Origin: Actinomycetota bacterium
Lineage (GTDB): Bacteria > Actinomycetota > Thermoleophilia > Solirubrobacterales > Solirubrobacteraceae
Length of the DNA stretch: 64,000 bases
Direction: 5' to 3'
Assembly (NCBI GenBank): GCA_018268595.1
Contig: JAFDWH010000019.1
Span: forward strand, 124,001 to 188,000
The position numbers were made by a program, and so were the translations under genes. Below are positions 16,814 through 20,414 of the stretch, piece after piece. Below the pieces are notes generated by a model, which saw only the letters and a program-made list of their open reading frames with translations, had not been told where the DNA came from and did not search any database. Within the stretch, counting starts at the first letter, position 1, and every line of letters begins with the position of its first letter.

Positions 16814-17380
16814 ATGGCAGAGCAGCGCACGGTGGCGCAGGCAAGCCACCAGACGATTCGTCTCAGCAAAGGCAAGCATGCCTCGCCCAGCGAGGGAGCC
16901 TGCGTCATGGAGCTCGCCTCGATGCTCGCGGGGGAGCCGTTCACCGACCGTCCGGCGACGGTCTGCCCGGTGATCGCCGGCTTCATGCGCGCGTACAACG
17001 ACCGCGTCGACGACGACCGGCGCCAGGACCTGTACCGCTACGCGGCCGAGGTCGTCGGCACCCGCACCACGCCCGAGGTCGAGCACGCGCGCGAGCGCCG
17101 CTGCCTGGAGTGGGCGGACGGGATGCGCCGCCAACGTCCCCGCCCGCTGCGCTGGATGGCGCGTGGGGGACCGGGCTCCGTCGACCGCCGCCTCGGGCTC
17201 GACGCCGCCGGCACGTACGCGGCCCGCTCGATCCGCCGACACGGCGACCGCACGCACGCGGCCGCGCTCGCGCTCGTCGACGAGCTGATCGCGATGGGGC
17301 GCAACTCCTACGATCCGGCAACGACCGCCGCGACGACGTCCGCGCCCAGCGCGGACACGCCCCAGCTCGCTACGCGATAG
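16814..17380 (+). CDS. Actinobacterial protein of unknown function
   Basis: The 188-residue protein starts MAEQRTVAQASHQTIRLSKG and carries SEGACVMELASMLAGE and RPATVCPVIAGFMRAYND, which I have seen in other actinobacterial proteins without an assigned role. There is no signal peptide or membrane helix. AAAGGGG upstream is a good ribosome binding site. A GGGG-ATA-CCCC stem lies in the 130-base gap before it. The 3' end overlaps the convergent CRP-like gene by 11 bases. Confidence 0.75.
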   Translation: MAEQRTVAQASHQTIRLSKGKHASPSEGACVMELASMLAGEPFTDRPATVCPVIAGFMRAYNDRVDDDRRQDLYRYAAEVVGTRTTPEVEHARERRCLEWADGMRRQRPRPLRWMARGGPGSVDRRLGLDAAGTYAARSIRRHGDRTHAAALALVDELIAMGRNSYDPATTAATTSAPSADTPQLATR

Positions 17381-18146
17381 GGGCGCGCACGTCGCCTGCG
17401 CCGACGAGGTCGTCCCCGCCGAGGGCGACCTCGTCGGGGCGGTCATCCGCCAGCGACAGCAGCCACTGCCCGCGCTCGTCGCGGCGCAGCAGGTCCCGCT
17501 CCGCCAAGGCGCCGAGCGCCGACGTCACCGACGGGCGCTGCGCGCCGACGAGCAGGGCGAGCTGACGGTGCGTCAGCCCGAGCGGGATCAGGACGCCGTC
17601 CGCCGTGACCTTCCCGAAGCGGTCGGCGAGGTGCCAGAAGAACGCGAGCAGGCGCGTGTCGACGCGCTTGAGGCTGTGGATGCTGACCATCACGCCGAGG
17701 TCGTGCGCGCGTTCCGTGGCGCGCGCCACGAGCGCGGTGATGAGCGTCGGCCAGTGCGCGGCGACGCGCAGGAAGCGGCGATCGAGCACGGCCAGGCGCG
17801 TCGGTTCGACCACGCGCCAGCCGATCTCGTGCCGCATCGGCGCGTCGCTGCCGCGCGCGTCGTTGGGGCGCAGCAGCGCTCCGGGCCCGATCAGCTCGCC
17901 GCAACGCGCGTCCGCGACCGTCACGTCGCGGATCAGCAGCCCCTCGAGCACGAGCAGGCCGAGCTCGGCGGAGGCGACCTCGTCGCGGGGGGACCAGTCG
18001 CCCGTCGGCAGCTCGATCACCGCGGCGACCGCGTGCTGGCGGGCACGGCTGCGCTCCGGGTCCGGCAGCGCGGTGCGGAGCCCGGCGTCGTGGTCGAGGA
18101 CGTAGACGAAGTGCTCGCCGGGGCGGCTGGGGTCGGTTACGGACAC
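17370..18146 (-). CDS. CRP/FNR-family transcription regulator
   Basis: A 258-residue protein with an N-terminal cyclic-nucleotide-binding-like beta barrel (to about residue 140), a long dimer helix (HWPTLITALVARATERAHDL) and a C-terminal winged helix with LTHRQLALLVGAQRPSVTSALGAL, the Crp-type recognition helix. The residues that bind cAMP in true CRP are not evident, so the ligand is unknown. Upstream on the same strand lie the IIKP micro-ORF and a strong hairpin, then a methyltransferase. A GTG start is used. Confidence 0.85.
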   Translation of the reverse strand: MSVTDPSRPGEHFVYVLDHDAGLRTALPDPERSRARQHAVAAVIELPTGDWSPRDEVASAELGLLVLEGLLIRDVTVADARCGELIGPGALLRPNDARGSDAPMRHEIGWRVVEPTRLAVLDRRFLRVAAHWPTLITALVARATERAHDLGVMVSIHSLKRVDTRLLAFFWHLADRFGKVTADGVLIPLGLTHRQLALLVGAQRPSVTSALGALAERDLLRRDERGQWLLSLADDRPDEVALGGDDLVGAGDVRAPIA

Positions 18147-18213
18147 GCTGCCGTCCCACGTACCCGTTCCGGGCCGATCGCTCGCACGGGATTTCCCGCT
18201 CGCGCCTTCGCGC

Positions 18214-18249
18214 GGGCGTCGCCGGCACTGCGGGAGGCCGGCGACGCCC
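18214..18249 (-). terminator. Perfect 13-bp hairpin downstream of the micro-ORF
   Basis: GGGCGTCGCCGGC (18214-18226) and GCCGGCGACGCCC (18237-18249) are exact reverse complements with a ten-base loop; pairing continues a few bases outward past one bulge. On the minus strand it begins 15 bases after the micro-ORF stop. No T-run follows, as often in very GC-rich genomes. It would separate the micro-ORF from the CRP-like gene. Confidence 0.6.
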
Positions 18250-18264
18250 CGCGACGGGCGGGCG

Positions 18265-18309
18265 CTACGGCTTGATGATCGGCTTGATGATCGGCTTGAT
18301 GATGCCCAT
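18265..18309 (-). CDS. Micro-ORF encoding MGIIKPIIKPIIKP
   Basis: Fourteen codons read M-G followed by three identical I-I-K-P units and a TAG. Upstream is AGGGGGTGA, one mismatch from the consensus AGGAGGTGA, eight bases before the ATG, which is unusually strong for this window. The ORF lies 40 bases after the end of the methyltransferase gene on the same strand and 15 bases before a perfect 13-bp hairpin. The peptide is cationic and hydrophobic. I know of no named family; the tandem units could reflect a simple DNA repeat, but the frame, ribosome binding site and terminator all agree. Confidence 0.6.
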   Translation of the reverse strand: MGIIKPIIKPIIKP

Positions 18310-18349
18310 GGCGGTTCTCACCCCCTCTCCGGCTCGTCGTGATGGCACG

Positions 18350-19123
18350 TCAGCCGGCTCGTCCCGCGACGTAGACGAGCTTCGTGTGGACCTCCTCGTC
18401 GGCGTCCTCGTGGAGGACGCCGCCGGTGGACTGGCCCAGCACGGCTCGGCAGGCGAGTCCGGCTGACGTCAAGGCGCGGCGGATCGTGGGCTCCGGGTGG
18501 TGGCGCTGGACGTGGCGGCTGATGAGGCCGTCGCGGCCGCCCAGCTCGATCGCGGCCATGCACAGCGCCCCGGCCTCGACCGGGACCGCGGTCTCGCCGC
18601 GCCACACGGCGTCGGCGAGCGGCCGCTCGAAGACCGCGCCCTCGGCGAAGCCCGCGCGGTAGGTCGCGAGCGTGTTCGTGTCGAACAGGTAGGCCCCGTC
18701 CGCGGTGAGTTGCCGAGCGACCCCCGCGAACGCGGCGACGAGGTCGTCCTCGCTCAGCAGGTAGTTGACGGCGTCGTCGAGGCACGTGACGAGTCCGAAC
18801 GCGCCAAGTTCGGGCAGCTCGCGCATGTCCGCCACGAGCACGCGGTCCGGGTCGATGCCCGCGCACCGGCGCGCGCGCTCGGCCATCGCGGGGGAGATGT
18901 CGCACGCCCAGACGTCGTAGCCGCGCTCCAGCAGCGGCGCGAAGCTCTTGCCGGTCCCGCACGCCACGTCGAGCGCGCGGGTCCCGTTTGCCCCGTGGCT
19001 ACGGGCAATTCGCTCGAGCTGCGCGATCCACGCGGCGTGGTCGTAGCCGTCCGTGAAGTCGTCGTAGACGGGCGCGAGTCGCTCGTACGCGAGCAGCGCC
19101 GGTGTCGCTGTCATGGTCGCCAT
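18350..19123 (-). CDS. Class I SAM-dependent methyltransferase
   Basis: The 257-residue protein starts MATMTATPALLAYERLAPVY, has the SAM-binding GxGxG equivalent in LDVACGTGKSFAPLLERGYDVWACDIS, the acidic motif II and MRELPELGAFGLVTCLDDAVNYL, and a C-terminal beta domain of about 90 residues. This is the small ubiquinone/glycine-type methyltransferase fold; the substrate is unknown. It is divergent from the ECF sigma gene with 80 bases between starts, and is followed on its strand by the IIKP micro-ORF. Confidence 0.85.
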   Translation of the reverse strand: MATMTATPALLAYERLAPVYDDFTDGYDHAAWIAQLERIARSHGANGTRALDVACGTGKSFAPLLERGYDVWACDISPAMAERARRCAGIDPDRVLVADMRELPELGAFGLVTCLDDAVNYLLSEDDLVAAFAGVARQLTADGAYLFDTNTLATYRAGFAEGAVFERPLADAVWRGETAVPVEAGALCMAAIELGGRDGLISRHVQRHHPEPTIRRALTSAGLACRAVLGQSTGGVLHEDADEEVHTKLVYVAGRAG

Positions 19124-19147
19124 GACCAGCAAGACCCGCCGAACGCT

Positions 19148-19174
19148 CACGAACGTTTCACATACTTCGTGAAC
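19148..19174. promoter_or_regulatory. AT-rich divergent promoter region with overlapping inverted repeats
   Basis: Between the divergent methyltransferase and sigma genes, CACGAA (19148-19153) pairs with TTCGTG (19166-19171) and GTTTCAC (19155-19161) faces GTGAAC (19169-19174). The stretch is clearly less GC-rich than its surroundings, as expected for an operator or promoter. Which protein binds is unknown. Confidence 0.35.
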
Positions 19175-19203: not shown

Positions 19204-19734
19204 GTGGCTGCTGCAAGCGAGGGGGACCGCTCGCATCTGCCGAGCGGTGACTGGAACTGGAAGCTGATGCGGGGCGTCGCCGTGCGGGAGGCGCGGCGGT
19301 ACGTCGGCACTGCCCACGACATCGACGAAGTCGTGCAGGAGGCGCTCGTGCGCGCATGGCGCCGGCGGGCGACCTGCCAGGGCGACGACCGTATGCCGTG
19401 GATGCGCCAGATCGCGCGCAACGAGGCGCTGCGACTGCTCGAGCGCCGCAGACGGCGCTCCGAGTTCGAGCTGCTCGACGACGAAAGGCTGCTCGCAGGC
19501 GTCGCCGACGAGGACGCGCAGCAGGAGCAGGAGGGCATGCTGCTCCGGATGGAGGTTGAACAAGTCGTCGGCTGCTTGAGCGTTGCCGACCGACAGCTGC
19601 TTGCACTACGCTATGAGCGCGATCTGACCCAGCCGGAGGTGGCTCGCATGCTCGGTATCCCGGAAGGAACCGTCAAGATCCGACTTCATCGGCTTCGCGG
19701 ACGGTTGCGCAAGGCATTGGACGCCCCTGTATGA
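19204..19734 (+). CDS. ECF-family RNA polymerase sigma factor
   Basis: The 176-residue protein has sigma region 2 (DIDEVVQEALVRAWRR) and region 4 (LSVADRQLLALRYERDLTQPEVARMLGIPEGTVKIRLHRLRGRLRK) and lacks regions 1 and 3, the layout of extracytoplasmic-function sigma factors. Its stop overlaps the ATG of an ArsR-like regulator by four bases, where many ECF factors have an anti-sigma gene. The downstream protein has no membrane helix, so it is not a classical anti-sigma factor. GTG 19204 is used; the true start is not certain. Confidence 0.85.
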   Translation: MAAASEGDRSHLPSGDWNWKLMRGVAVREARRYVGTAHDIDEVVQEALVRAWRRRATCQGDDRMPWMRQIARNEALRLLERRRRRSEFELLDDERLLAGVADEDAQQEQEGMLLRMEVEQVVGCLSVADRQLLALRYERDLTQPEVARMLGIPEGTVKIRLHRLRGRLRKALDAPV

Positions 19735-20414
19735 AGCCTTACAGCGACATCAACGATCCGCGGCTCATCAAGGCTCTGGCGCACCCGCTGCGCGTGCGGA
19801 TCCTCTCAATTCTCGAGACGCGGGACATGGCGAGCCCGAACGAGATGGCCGACGAGCTCGGCGTCTCGCTCGGCGTCATGAGCTACCACGTACGCCGCCT
19901 CCACGCGCTCGGATTCCTCGAGCTCGTCAAGCGCACGCCGCGCCGCGGAGCGATAGAGCACCACTACCGTGCGAAGGCGCGTCCGCGCGTCACCGACGAG
20001 GGCTGGGCGGAGACGCCGTCGATCGTCAAGCGCGCGATGGTCGGCGCCTCGCTCCAGCAGATCACCGGCTACATCAACACGGCCGCCGAGCAGGGCGGGT
20101 TCGACCGCGGCGACGCGCATCTCAGCCGAACCGTGCTGATGCTCGACGACGAGGGCTGGAGACAGCTCGCCGGCGAGATGGCGCAGTGGATGGCGCGCGT
20201 CGAGCAGCTGGAGGAGGAGAGCCTCGAGCGCATCGCCGCCTCCGGCGCCGACAGCGACACGGTGGCCAAGCGCAGCGCCGCGATCCTGATGCTGTTCGAG
20301 GCGGAGGGCGTGCCGGAGCACGACCCGGCGCGCGACGCGAACGGCGCGGACGAGCGTCTCGGCCGCCGCTCGTCGCGGCGCCCGCGGCCGCTGCGAGCCG
20401 TCAGTCGCGACTGA
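19731..20414 (+). CDS. ArsR-like winged-helix transcription regulator
   Basis: A 227-residue protein starting MKPYSDINDPRLIKALAHPLRVRILSIL, the classic ArsR-type winged-helix opening, with recognition helix SLGVMSYHVRRLHALGFLELV. A C-terminal helical region of about 110 residues (ITGYINTAAEQ to MLFEAEGVPEHD) and a basic tail follow. No metal-binding cysteines are visible. It is translationally coupled to the ECF sigma gene, so the two probably act on a shared response. Confidence 0.85.
   Translation: MKPYSDINDPRLIKALAHPLRVRILSILETRDMASPNEMADELGVSLGVMSYHVRRLHALGFLELVKRTPRRGAIEHHYRAKARPRVTDEGWAETPSIVKRAMVGASLQQITGYINTAAEQGGFDRGDAHLSRTVLMLDDEGWRQLAGEMAQWMARVEQLEEESLERIAASGADSDTVAKRSAAILMLFEAEGVPEHDPARDANGADERLGRRSSRRPRPLRAVSRD

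Follow-up and report, generated by a model that had tools for sequence, protein, structure and literature searches.

Background

Precursor genes of only a few codons are known from several pathways to ribosomally synthesized and post-translationally modified peptides (RiPPs). The biarylitides and myxarylin (bytA-bytO-bytZ) derive from a five-codon precursor gene that lies next to a modifying enzyme (PMC8708641). The myxobacterial biarylitide operon includes an N-terminal S-adenosylmethionine (SAM) methyltransferase, BytZ, a homolog of CorZ (PMC8708641, PMC12951456), and the solved structures 9SOT and 9SOV have been identified as CorZ, the methyltransferase of a RiPP with a five-residue precursor (PMC12951456). 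Microcin C starts from a seven-residue precursor whose gene has a strong Shine-Dalgarno site (PMC6495379), and CypM and CgnL, of the cypemycin and crocagin pathways, methylate peptide amino termini (PMC11285071). Here we present a micro-open reading frame (micro-ORF) found directly 3' of a methyltransferase gene in a 64,000-nucleotide stretch of DNA, hereafter the window, from an Actinomycetota bacterium of the Solirubrobacteraceae (order Solirubrobacterales; contig JAFDWH010000019.1, positions 124,001 to 188,000 of the forward strand). Comparison with related genomes shows the micro-ORF to be a genuine gene, conserved and encoding a tiny tetrapeptide-repeat peptide, and the methyltransferase is probably its modifier.

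Results

The micro-ORF and its counterparts in Conexibacter

The micro-ORF is read on the minus strand from 18309 to 18265 as ATG GGC (ATC ATC AAG CCG)x3 TAG, 15 codons including the stop, with a gap of 40 bases between the methyltransferase stop and the micro-ORF.

18265..18309, minus strand: micro-ORF encoding MGIIKPIIKPIIKP (Met-Gly, then IIKP three times in tandem), with a TAG stop
18268..18303, minus strand: three perfect 12-nucleotide units ATCATCAAGCCG, one per tetrapeptide, all identical in DNA
18318..18326, minus strand: Shine-Dalgarno site AGGGGGTGA, with an 8-nucleotide spacer to the ATG
18350..19123, minus strand: class I SAM-dependent methyltransferase (Pfam Methyltransf_25), first gene of the predicted operon
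17370..18146, minus strand: CRP-like regulator, on the same strand as the micro-ORF and a neighbour in Conexibacter only

The CRP-like gene has orthologs in all six of the other Conexibacter genomes and the methyltransferase in five; in the sixth (G054) the contig stops within the hairpin that follows the micro-ORF. In every one of the five readable relatives the gap between the two genes contains a micro-ORF after the near-perfect Shine-Dalgarno site GGAGGTGA. The encoded peptides are MQIIRPIIRPIIRPAIIRP (G067), MTIIRPIIRPIIRPAIIRP (G077), MQIIRPIIRPAIIRP (G022, C. arvalis), MSIIKPSIIKPSIIKP (G040, which we take to be C. woesei) and MFIRPFIRP (G086), with two to four tetrapeptide units of the type (IIRP)n, (IIKP)n or (FIRP)2. 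Codon usage varies synonymously among these micro-ORFs (Arg as CGT, CGC or CGG; Ile as ATC, ATA or ATT; Pro as CCG or CCC), and all three stop codons are used. Inside the IIRP units the variation across the six Conexibacter genomes is synonymous only, the exchange of AAG for CGN swaps Lys for Arg and so preserves charge, and copy number shifts by whole 12-nucleotide units plus single-codon spacers, with the frame intact throughout.

The earlier note on this DNA, made from the window's letters alone, had described 14 codons, a Shine-Dalgarno site eight bases before the ATG, an immediate TAG, a hairpin and the two flanking genes, all of which proved exact on re-reading. It had also proposed that shifted frames, loss of the ATG or repeat numbers varying in other than whole units among relatives would speak against a gene, and that conservation of the peptide with synonymous codon changes would speak for one; the relatives keep frame, ATG, Shine-Dalgarno site and stop, and conserve the peptide with just such changes.

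Dinucleotide shuffling of such intergenic sequence yielded a Shine-Dalgarno site with an ORF of 4-20 codons about 1-2% of the time. An IIxP-type repeat ORF never appeared (0 of 3000 shuffles in each of six genomes). The scan used for this comparison recovered the real ORF in five of the six, that of G086 (GGAGGTGAGAGCCAGC-ATG) being missed through non-overlapping matching of the Shine-Dalgarno pattern. The shuffles, together with the frame conserved under codon variation in the relatives, therefore show that the micro-ORF is not a product of chance.

In G086 (L165, positions 1-1550) the methyltransferase frame has no stop and reads in frame through the Shine-Dalgarno site into MFIRPFIRP and its stop codon, which may reflect a natural fusion of enzyme and peptide or else a single-base slip in the metagenome assembly.

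Micro-ORFs beside methyltransferases in the order

A micro-ORF preceded by a Shine-Dalgarno site lies at most 60 nucleotides 3' of the methyltransferase in 27 of 61 loci of the order, compared with 2 of 344 control genes. Both control positives adjoin the same methyltransferase: one is the G221 micro-ORF counted again from a second reference gene, and the other encodes MPWRP. This last ORF, five codons after AGGAGG and identical in L158 (G033) and L155 (G048b), stands on the opposite strand just past the 3' end of the methyltransferase, where it comes after a LysR-type gene and is convergent with the methyltransferase.

Beyond Conexibacter, Pro-ended members follow orthologous methyltransferases as M-(ICRP)4 (G058), MTIRP (G059), MIVGP (G044), VEIIAP (G111) and VIIQP (G222 and G223). 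The Pro-ended members all consist of Met, with or without one further residue, and one to four tetrapeptides ending in Pro, a single Ala or Ser being allowed between units; this common layout points to the tetrapeptide as the functional unit. In G044 and G058 the two genes overlap, the stop of the methyltransferase and the start of the micro-ORF sharing ATGA, an arrangement of translational coupling. Genera differ in the gene downstream of the micro-ORF, which runs convergently in G111 and G058, whereas the methyltransferase is constant.

A search of 146 genomes of the family for a Shine-Dalgarno site, ATG and an I-[KR]P-like start gave seven matches, six of them 3' of the methyltransferase, and no control matches. 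When the same genomes were searched for a Shine-Dalgarno site and ATG leading to a [KR]P-stop, most matches were out of frame or within genes, and the clear in-frame ones lay at the methyltransferase. This second search also returned one isolated MTTTHP ORF in G007. Across about 85,000 species, a scan for a Shine-Dalgarno site with a two-unit motif matched four records, all of Conexibacter, apart from two chance matches in other phyla. Exact IIKP-repeat searches outside the genome gave no match, since R, C or F replaces the Lys or an Ile in the relatives and the spacing differs; the counterparts came to light by reading the orthologous loci.

Taken together, the synonymous codons, the in-frame insertions and deletions and the recurrence 3' of orthologous methyltransferases bear out the earlier note's claim of a translated short repeat-peptide gene, and its link to this methyltransferase family is strongly supported by the comparisons; translation and operon membership of the micro-ORF are likewise well supported. 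Class and phylum surveys suggest a system largely restricted to Solirubrobacterales, with isolated hints elsewhere, and methyltransferases from a family that reads as streptomycete-side mostly have no micro-ORF. A distant methyltransferase of another actinobacterial family (L211, G679) is followed by AAAGGAGGTGA and MMLPDWKE at +46. In the same family, L212 (G1030) has MRKMTVNVKPVVTEEKYLVLHSA, preceded by a Shine-Dalgarno site, at +117 after the methyltransferase. MMLPDWKE and MRKMTVNVKPVVTEEKYLVLHSA are perhaps further precursor types.

Sister operons with longer peptides

Elsewhere in the same methyltransferase tree, the enzyme gene adjoins one for a peptide of about 20 residues, for example MLKITQIEEPTLPALGTTKGM or MNIQPLEQPVAPEAMTQKGN. 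These peptides stand directly 3' of the methyltransferase and have a C-terminal K-G-x-like end (L062, L066, L072, L074, L075, L077, L079, L109, L132 and others). In most such loci the next gene encodes an adenylating enzyme, in many cases separated from the peptide gene by a hairpin; the TOMM leader-binding domain scored above cut-off in all three full-length adenylating enzymes tested, and the best solved relatives, for the one protein tested, include MccB and PaaA. In family f2, peptides of this kind occur near the methyltransferase on either strand. L157 (G090b) has a pair of related genes for 20-residue peptides, MEIVVTDRPVIKEAGSWKGS and VNIVVADRPVAGESGFWKGN, near one methyltransferase, at +8 (plus strand) and +2036 (minus strand). 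Loci that combine the peptide of about 20 residues with the adenylating enzyme form an apparently undescribed RiPP-type cluster of Solirubrobacterales. One regulated methyltransferase module would pair with two quite different precursor types.

Promoter, sigma factor and hairpin

The remaining features of the locus, with gene calls around the loci made by a simple GC-frame script rather than a trained gene finder, are as follows.

19133..19160, minus strand: promoter of the extracytoplasmic function (ECF) type, TGAAAC-N17-GGGTC, ending some ten bases ahead of the methyltransferase ATG
18214..18249, minus strand: GC-rich hairpin, a perfect 13-bp stem (18214-18226/18237-18249) starting 15 bases after the micro-ORF stop
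19204..19734, plus strand: divergent ECF sigma factor (TIGR02937 above cut-off), which adjoins the methyltransferase in 30 loci
19731..20414, plus strand: ArsR-like winged-helix regulator (Pfam HTH_20; conserved neighbour cluster c1), overlapping the end of the sigma gene

The promoter motif has its sole match within the window here, with 0.03 expected. Across 485 kb of sequence surrounding the order's methyltransferases there are 25 occurrences (24 loci, the G221 site being seen from two reference points), each directly before a methyltransferase, and the motif precedes both the short-peptide operons and many of those with peptides of about 20 residues. An extended form, TGAAACG-N17-GGGTCT, is highly specific. 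The divergent sigma factor and the ArsR-like regulator adjoin the promoter and recur with it. The sigma factor likely recognises this promoter, whose position predicts a methyltransferase messenger RNA with a very short 5' leader or none. The hairpin is conserved in six Conexibacter genomes, with compensatory changes at three pairs and no T-run after it, and is the probable end of the operon transcript. The unit would accordingly run from ECF promoter through methyltransferase and micro-ORF, the latter with a very strong ribosome site, to hairpin, with the CRP-like regulator probably outside it. Between the hairpin and the CRP-like gene (window about 18147-18190) a stretch GGAAATCC...GAGCGA...GAACGGGTAC is kept at the same place in relatives and is probably that gene's own promoter or operator. 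An Rfam search returned tRNAs only.

The methyltransferase

The best NCBIfam match of the methyltransferase is NF041820 (daptide_MTase), at 56.5 bits against a cut-off of 175, a profile that matched all 17 aligned members of the family. Its AlphaFold model has a confident class I fold (pLDDT 93), and the closest solved structures are the C-methyltransferases PsmD and SeMT, the sugar N,N-dimethyltransferase TylM1 and the RiPP N-terminal methyltransferases CypM and CgnL. VIA-align gave Z 25.8, rmsd (root-mean-square deviation) 2.5 and 228 aligned residues for CypM, and Z 24.8, rmsd 2.7 and 235 aligned for CgnL, at about 20% identity to either. Among solved structures its profile matches CypM (7wzg), CgnL (7pd7) and CorZ (9sot/9sov), the last at 5e-15. 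The modelled structure alone does not decide between a peptide and a sugar substrate.

Discussion

On balance we judge it probable, with no great confidence, that the micro-ORF encodes a leaderless miniature precursor of tandem Pro-ended tetrapeptide cores, modified by its own methyltransferase in an ECF-sigma-controlled operon. What speaks most strongly for a precursor is the RiPP architecture of the sister operons. What the sequences show directly is the gene and how it is conserved, the layout of the operon with its promoter motif and hairpin, and the tie to the methyltransferase family; we infer a substrate-enzyme relation, a methylation site, cleavage after Pro, export and a role for the product. 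The micro-ORF would be the last gene of the operon, which would comprise methyltransferase, micro-peptide and hairpin under ECF sigma control. The precursor would be Met, with at most one further residue, and then one to four Pro-ended cores (IIKP, IIRP, ICRP, FIRP, TIRP, IIQP or IVGP). With a very strong ribosome-binding site on the micro-ORF and a leaderless or short-leader start on the enzyme, the peptide might be made in excess over the methyltransferase, a class I enzyme that would methylate it, most likely at the amino terminus, like CypM, CgnL and the biarylitide enzyme. In the multi-unit forms the units could possibly be released by a general prolyl peptidase.

Several points weigh against this proposal. 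The adenylating partner of the sister operons was not found in Conexibacter, a genus-wide search giving only MoeB/MoeZ-like matches without its N-terminal part, and the operon's neighbours included no recognisable exporter, peptidase or immunity gene. Removal of the formyl-Met would be needed ahead of N-terminal methylation. Some short members vary past the common motif, namely MSIIRWG (G020), MFIGSG (G225) and MLVKLR read from GTG (G202 and G203). Finally, sugar N-methyltransferases (TylM1) and C-methyltransferases (PsmD) share the fold and score as well or slightly higher.

The peptide could instead be an unmodified end product, a secreted signal or antimicrobial, its operon-mate methyltransferase acting elsewhere. 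We consider this unlikely: some members are indeed cationic, hydrophobic and repeat-bearing, and the Conexibacter operons have no second modifying enzyme, but the tie to one methyltransferase family holds across genera, families and even strand changes, VIIQP and MIVGP are neutral 5-mers, and the peptides are too short for any secretion signal. The likeness to designed antimicrobials of the G(IIKK)n type, raised by the earlier note, did not survive the comparison, in which relatives carry IIRP, ICRP, FIRP, IIQP, IVGP and IIAP, the unit-final Pro is conserved and some members have no positive charge. Proline is a helix breaker. A peptide product, be it a signal, an antibiotic or another small product, is possible, its form being most likely that of a methyltransferase-modified precursor.

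Next in order, and improbable, is a leader or arrest peptide, in which a ribosome paused at a Pro-stop (RP, KP or QP before the stop codon) would control termination at the hairpin and the downstream CRP-like gene. The recurrent Pro before the stop, the hairpin after the micro-ORF and, in Conexibacter, the same-strand regulator would fit such a role. Attenuation, for which the structural analysis covered the hairpin itself, is nevertheless disfavoured: from genus to genus the downstream gene is a different one, in two cases a convergent one, while the micro-ORF stays with its upstream methyltransferase; moreover, several members have no terminal Pro, and the repeat number varies freely, for which a leader has no need. 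A leader peptide for the CRP gene, as had also been suggested, is unlikely for the further reason that the hairpin and the separately conserved stretch before that gene intervene.

We regard as very improbable the idea that the act of translation alone matters, by protecting the 3' end of the messenger RNA or setting termination, with an incidental peptide sequence: the micro-ORF does stand at the transcript 3' end by a strong hairpin and its length is variable, but residues are conserved under synonymous change, the Lys/Arg swap keeps charge, and units are kept over two to four copies. A chance ORF within a DNA tandem repeat, for which the identical units in the window might speak, can be dismissed, being already refuted by relatives in which the ORF is conserved with codon variation far above background.

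The precursor reading invites a wider proposal, which we advance tentatively and hold to be somewhat short of an even chance: a new leaderless mini-RiPP class in Solirubrobacterales, for which a methyltransferase and a gene of 5-20 codons would suffice, with one to four tandem Pro-ended cores, each cleaved after Pro and N-methylated, and an ECF sigma factor of its own, either descended from or parallel to the operons with 20-residue precursors and MccB-like enzymes. Should the peptide be the substrate of the methyltransferase, it would rank with the smallest known ribosomal precursors, and its cores would be arranged in tandem. A group of understudied soil actinobacteria would in that case open to peptide discovery. 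Genes of 5-19 codons are invisible to annotation, and this family is recognisable by comparison alone, through a frame, promoter, Shine-Dalgarno site and hairpin that are conserved along with the enzyme partner.

Comparison with known systems

The locus has the general RiPP feature of a short gene-encoded peptide beside a putative modifying enzyme. The usual, though not universal, division of the precursor into leader and core is absent, with only Met and at most one residue before the first unit, which counts against a classical leader-type RiPP only. Resemblance to the G(IIKK)n antimicrobials is superficial, resting on a GII-K pattern in this strain only; every fourth residue here is Pro, and the relatives give up Gly, Lys and even the charge. 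As to the daptides, the window methyltransferase falls below the NF041820 cut-off, and daptide precursors and partner enzymes were not recognised, no model search having been made for them. CypM and CgnL have the same fold as the window methyltransferase over its full length.

Microcin C (mccA-mccB) and pantocin A (PaaA) resemble the micro-ORF system in that the precursor gene is miniature and its Shine-Dalgarno site strong, and in related operons of the same order an MccB/PaaA-like adenylating enzyme is paired with the methyltransferase. Microcin C differs in that no MccB-like enzyme stands beside the Conexibacter micro-ORF, and its precursor ends in Asn, whereas all Conexibacter members end in Pro. 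The biarylitides are the nearest known case, sharing both a miniature precursor gene and a methyltransferase, and microcin C comes next. The biarylitide precursor is MxYxH, a pattern not seen in the peptides here, and in the present loci the putative precursor gene follows the methyltransferase on its 3' side and often encodes tandem Pro-ended tetrapeptides. No cytochrome P450 of the BytO type was noticed among the neighbours read, only part of which were searched against profiles. Because the MccB partner, the C-terminal Asn and the MxYxH pattern are all missing, we file the micro-ORF system with neither microcin C nor the biarylitides, and treat it as a new form of miniature precursor.
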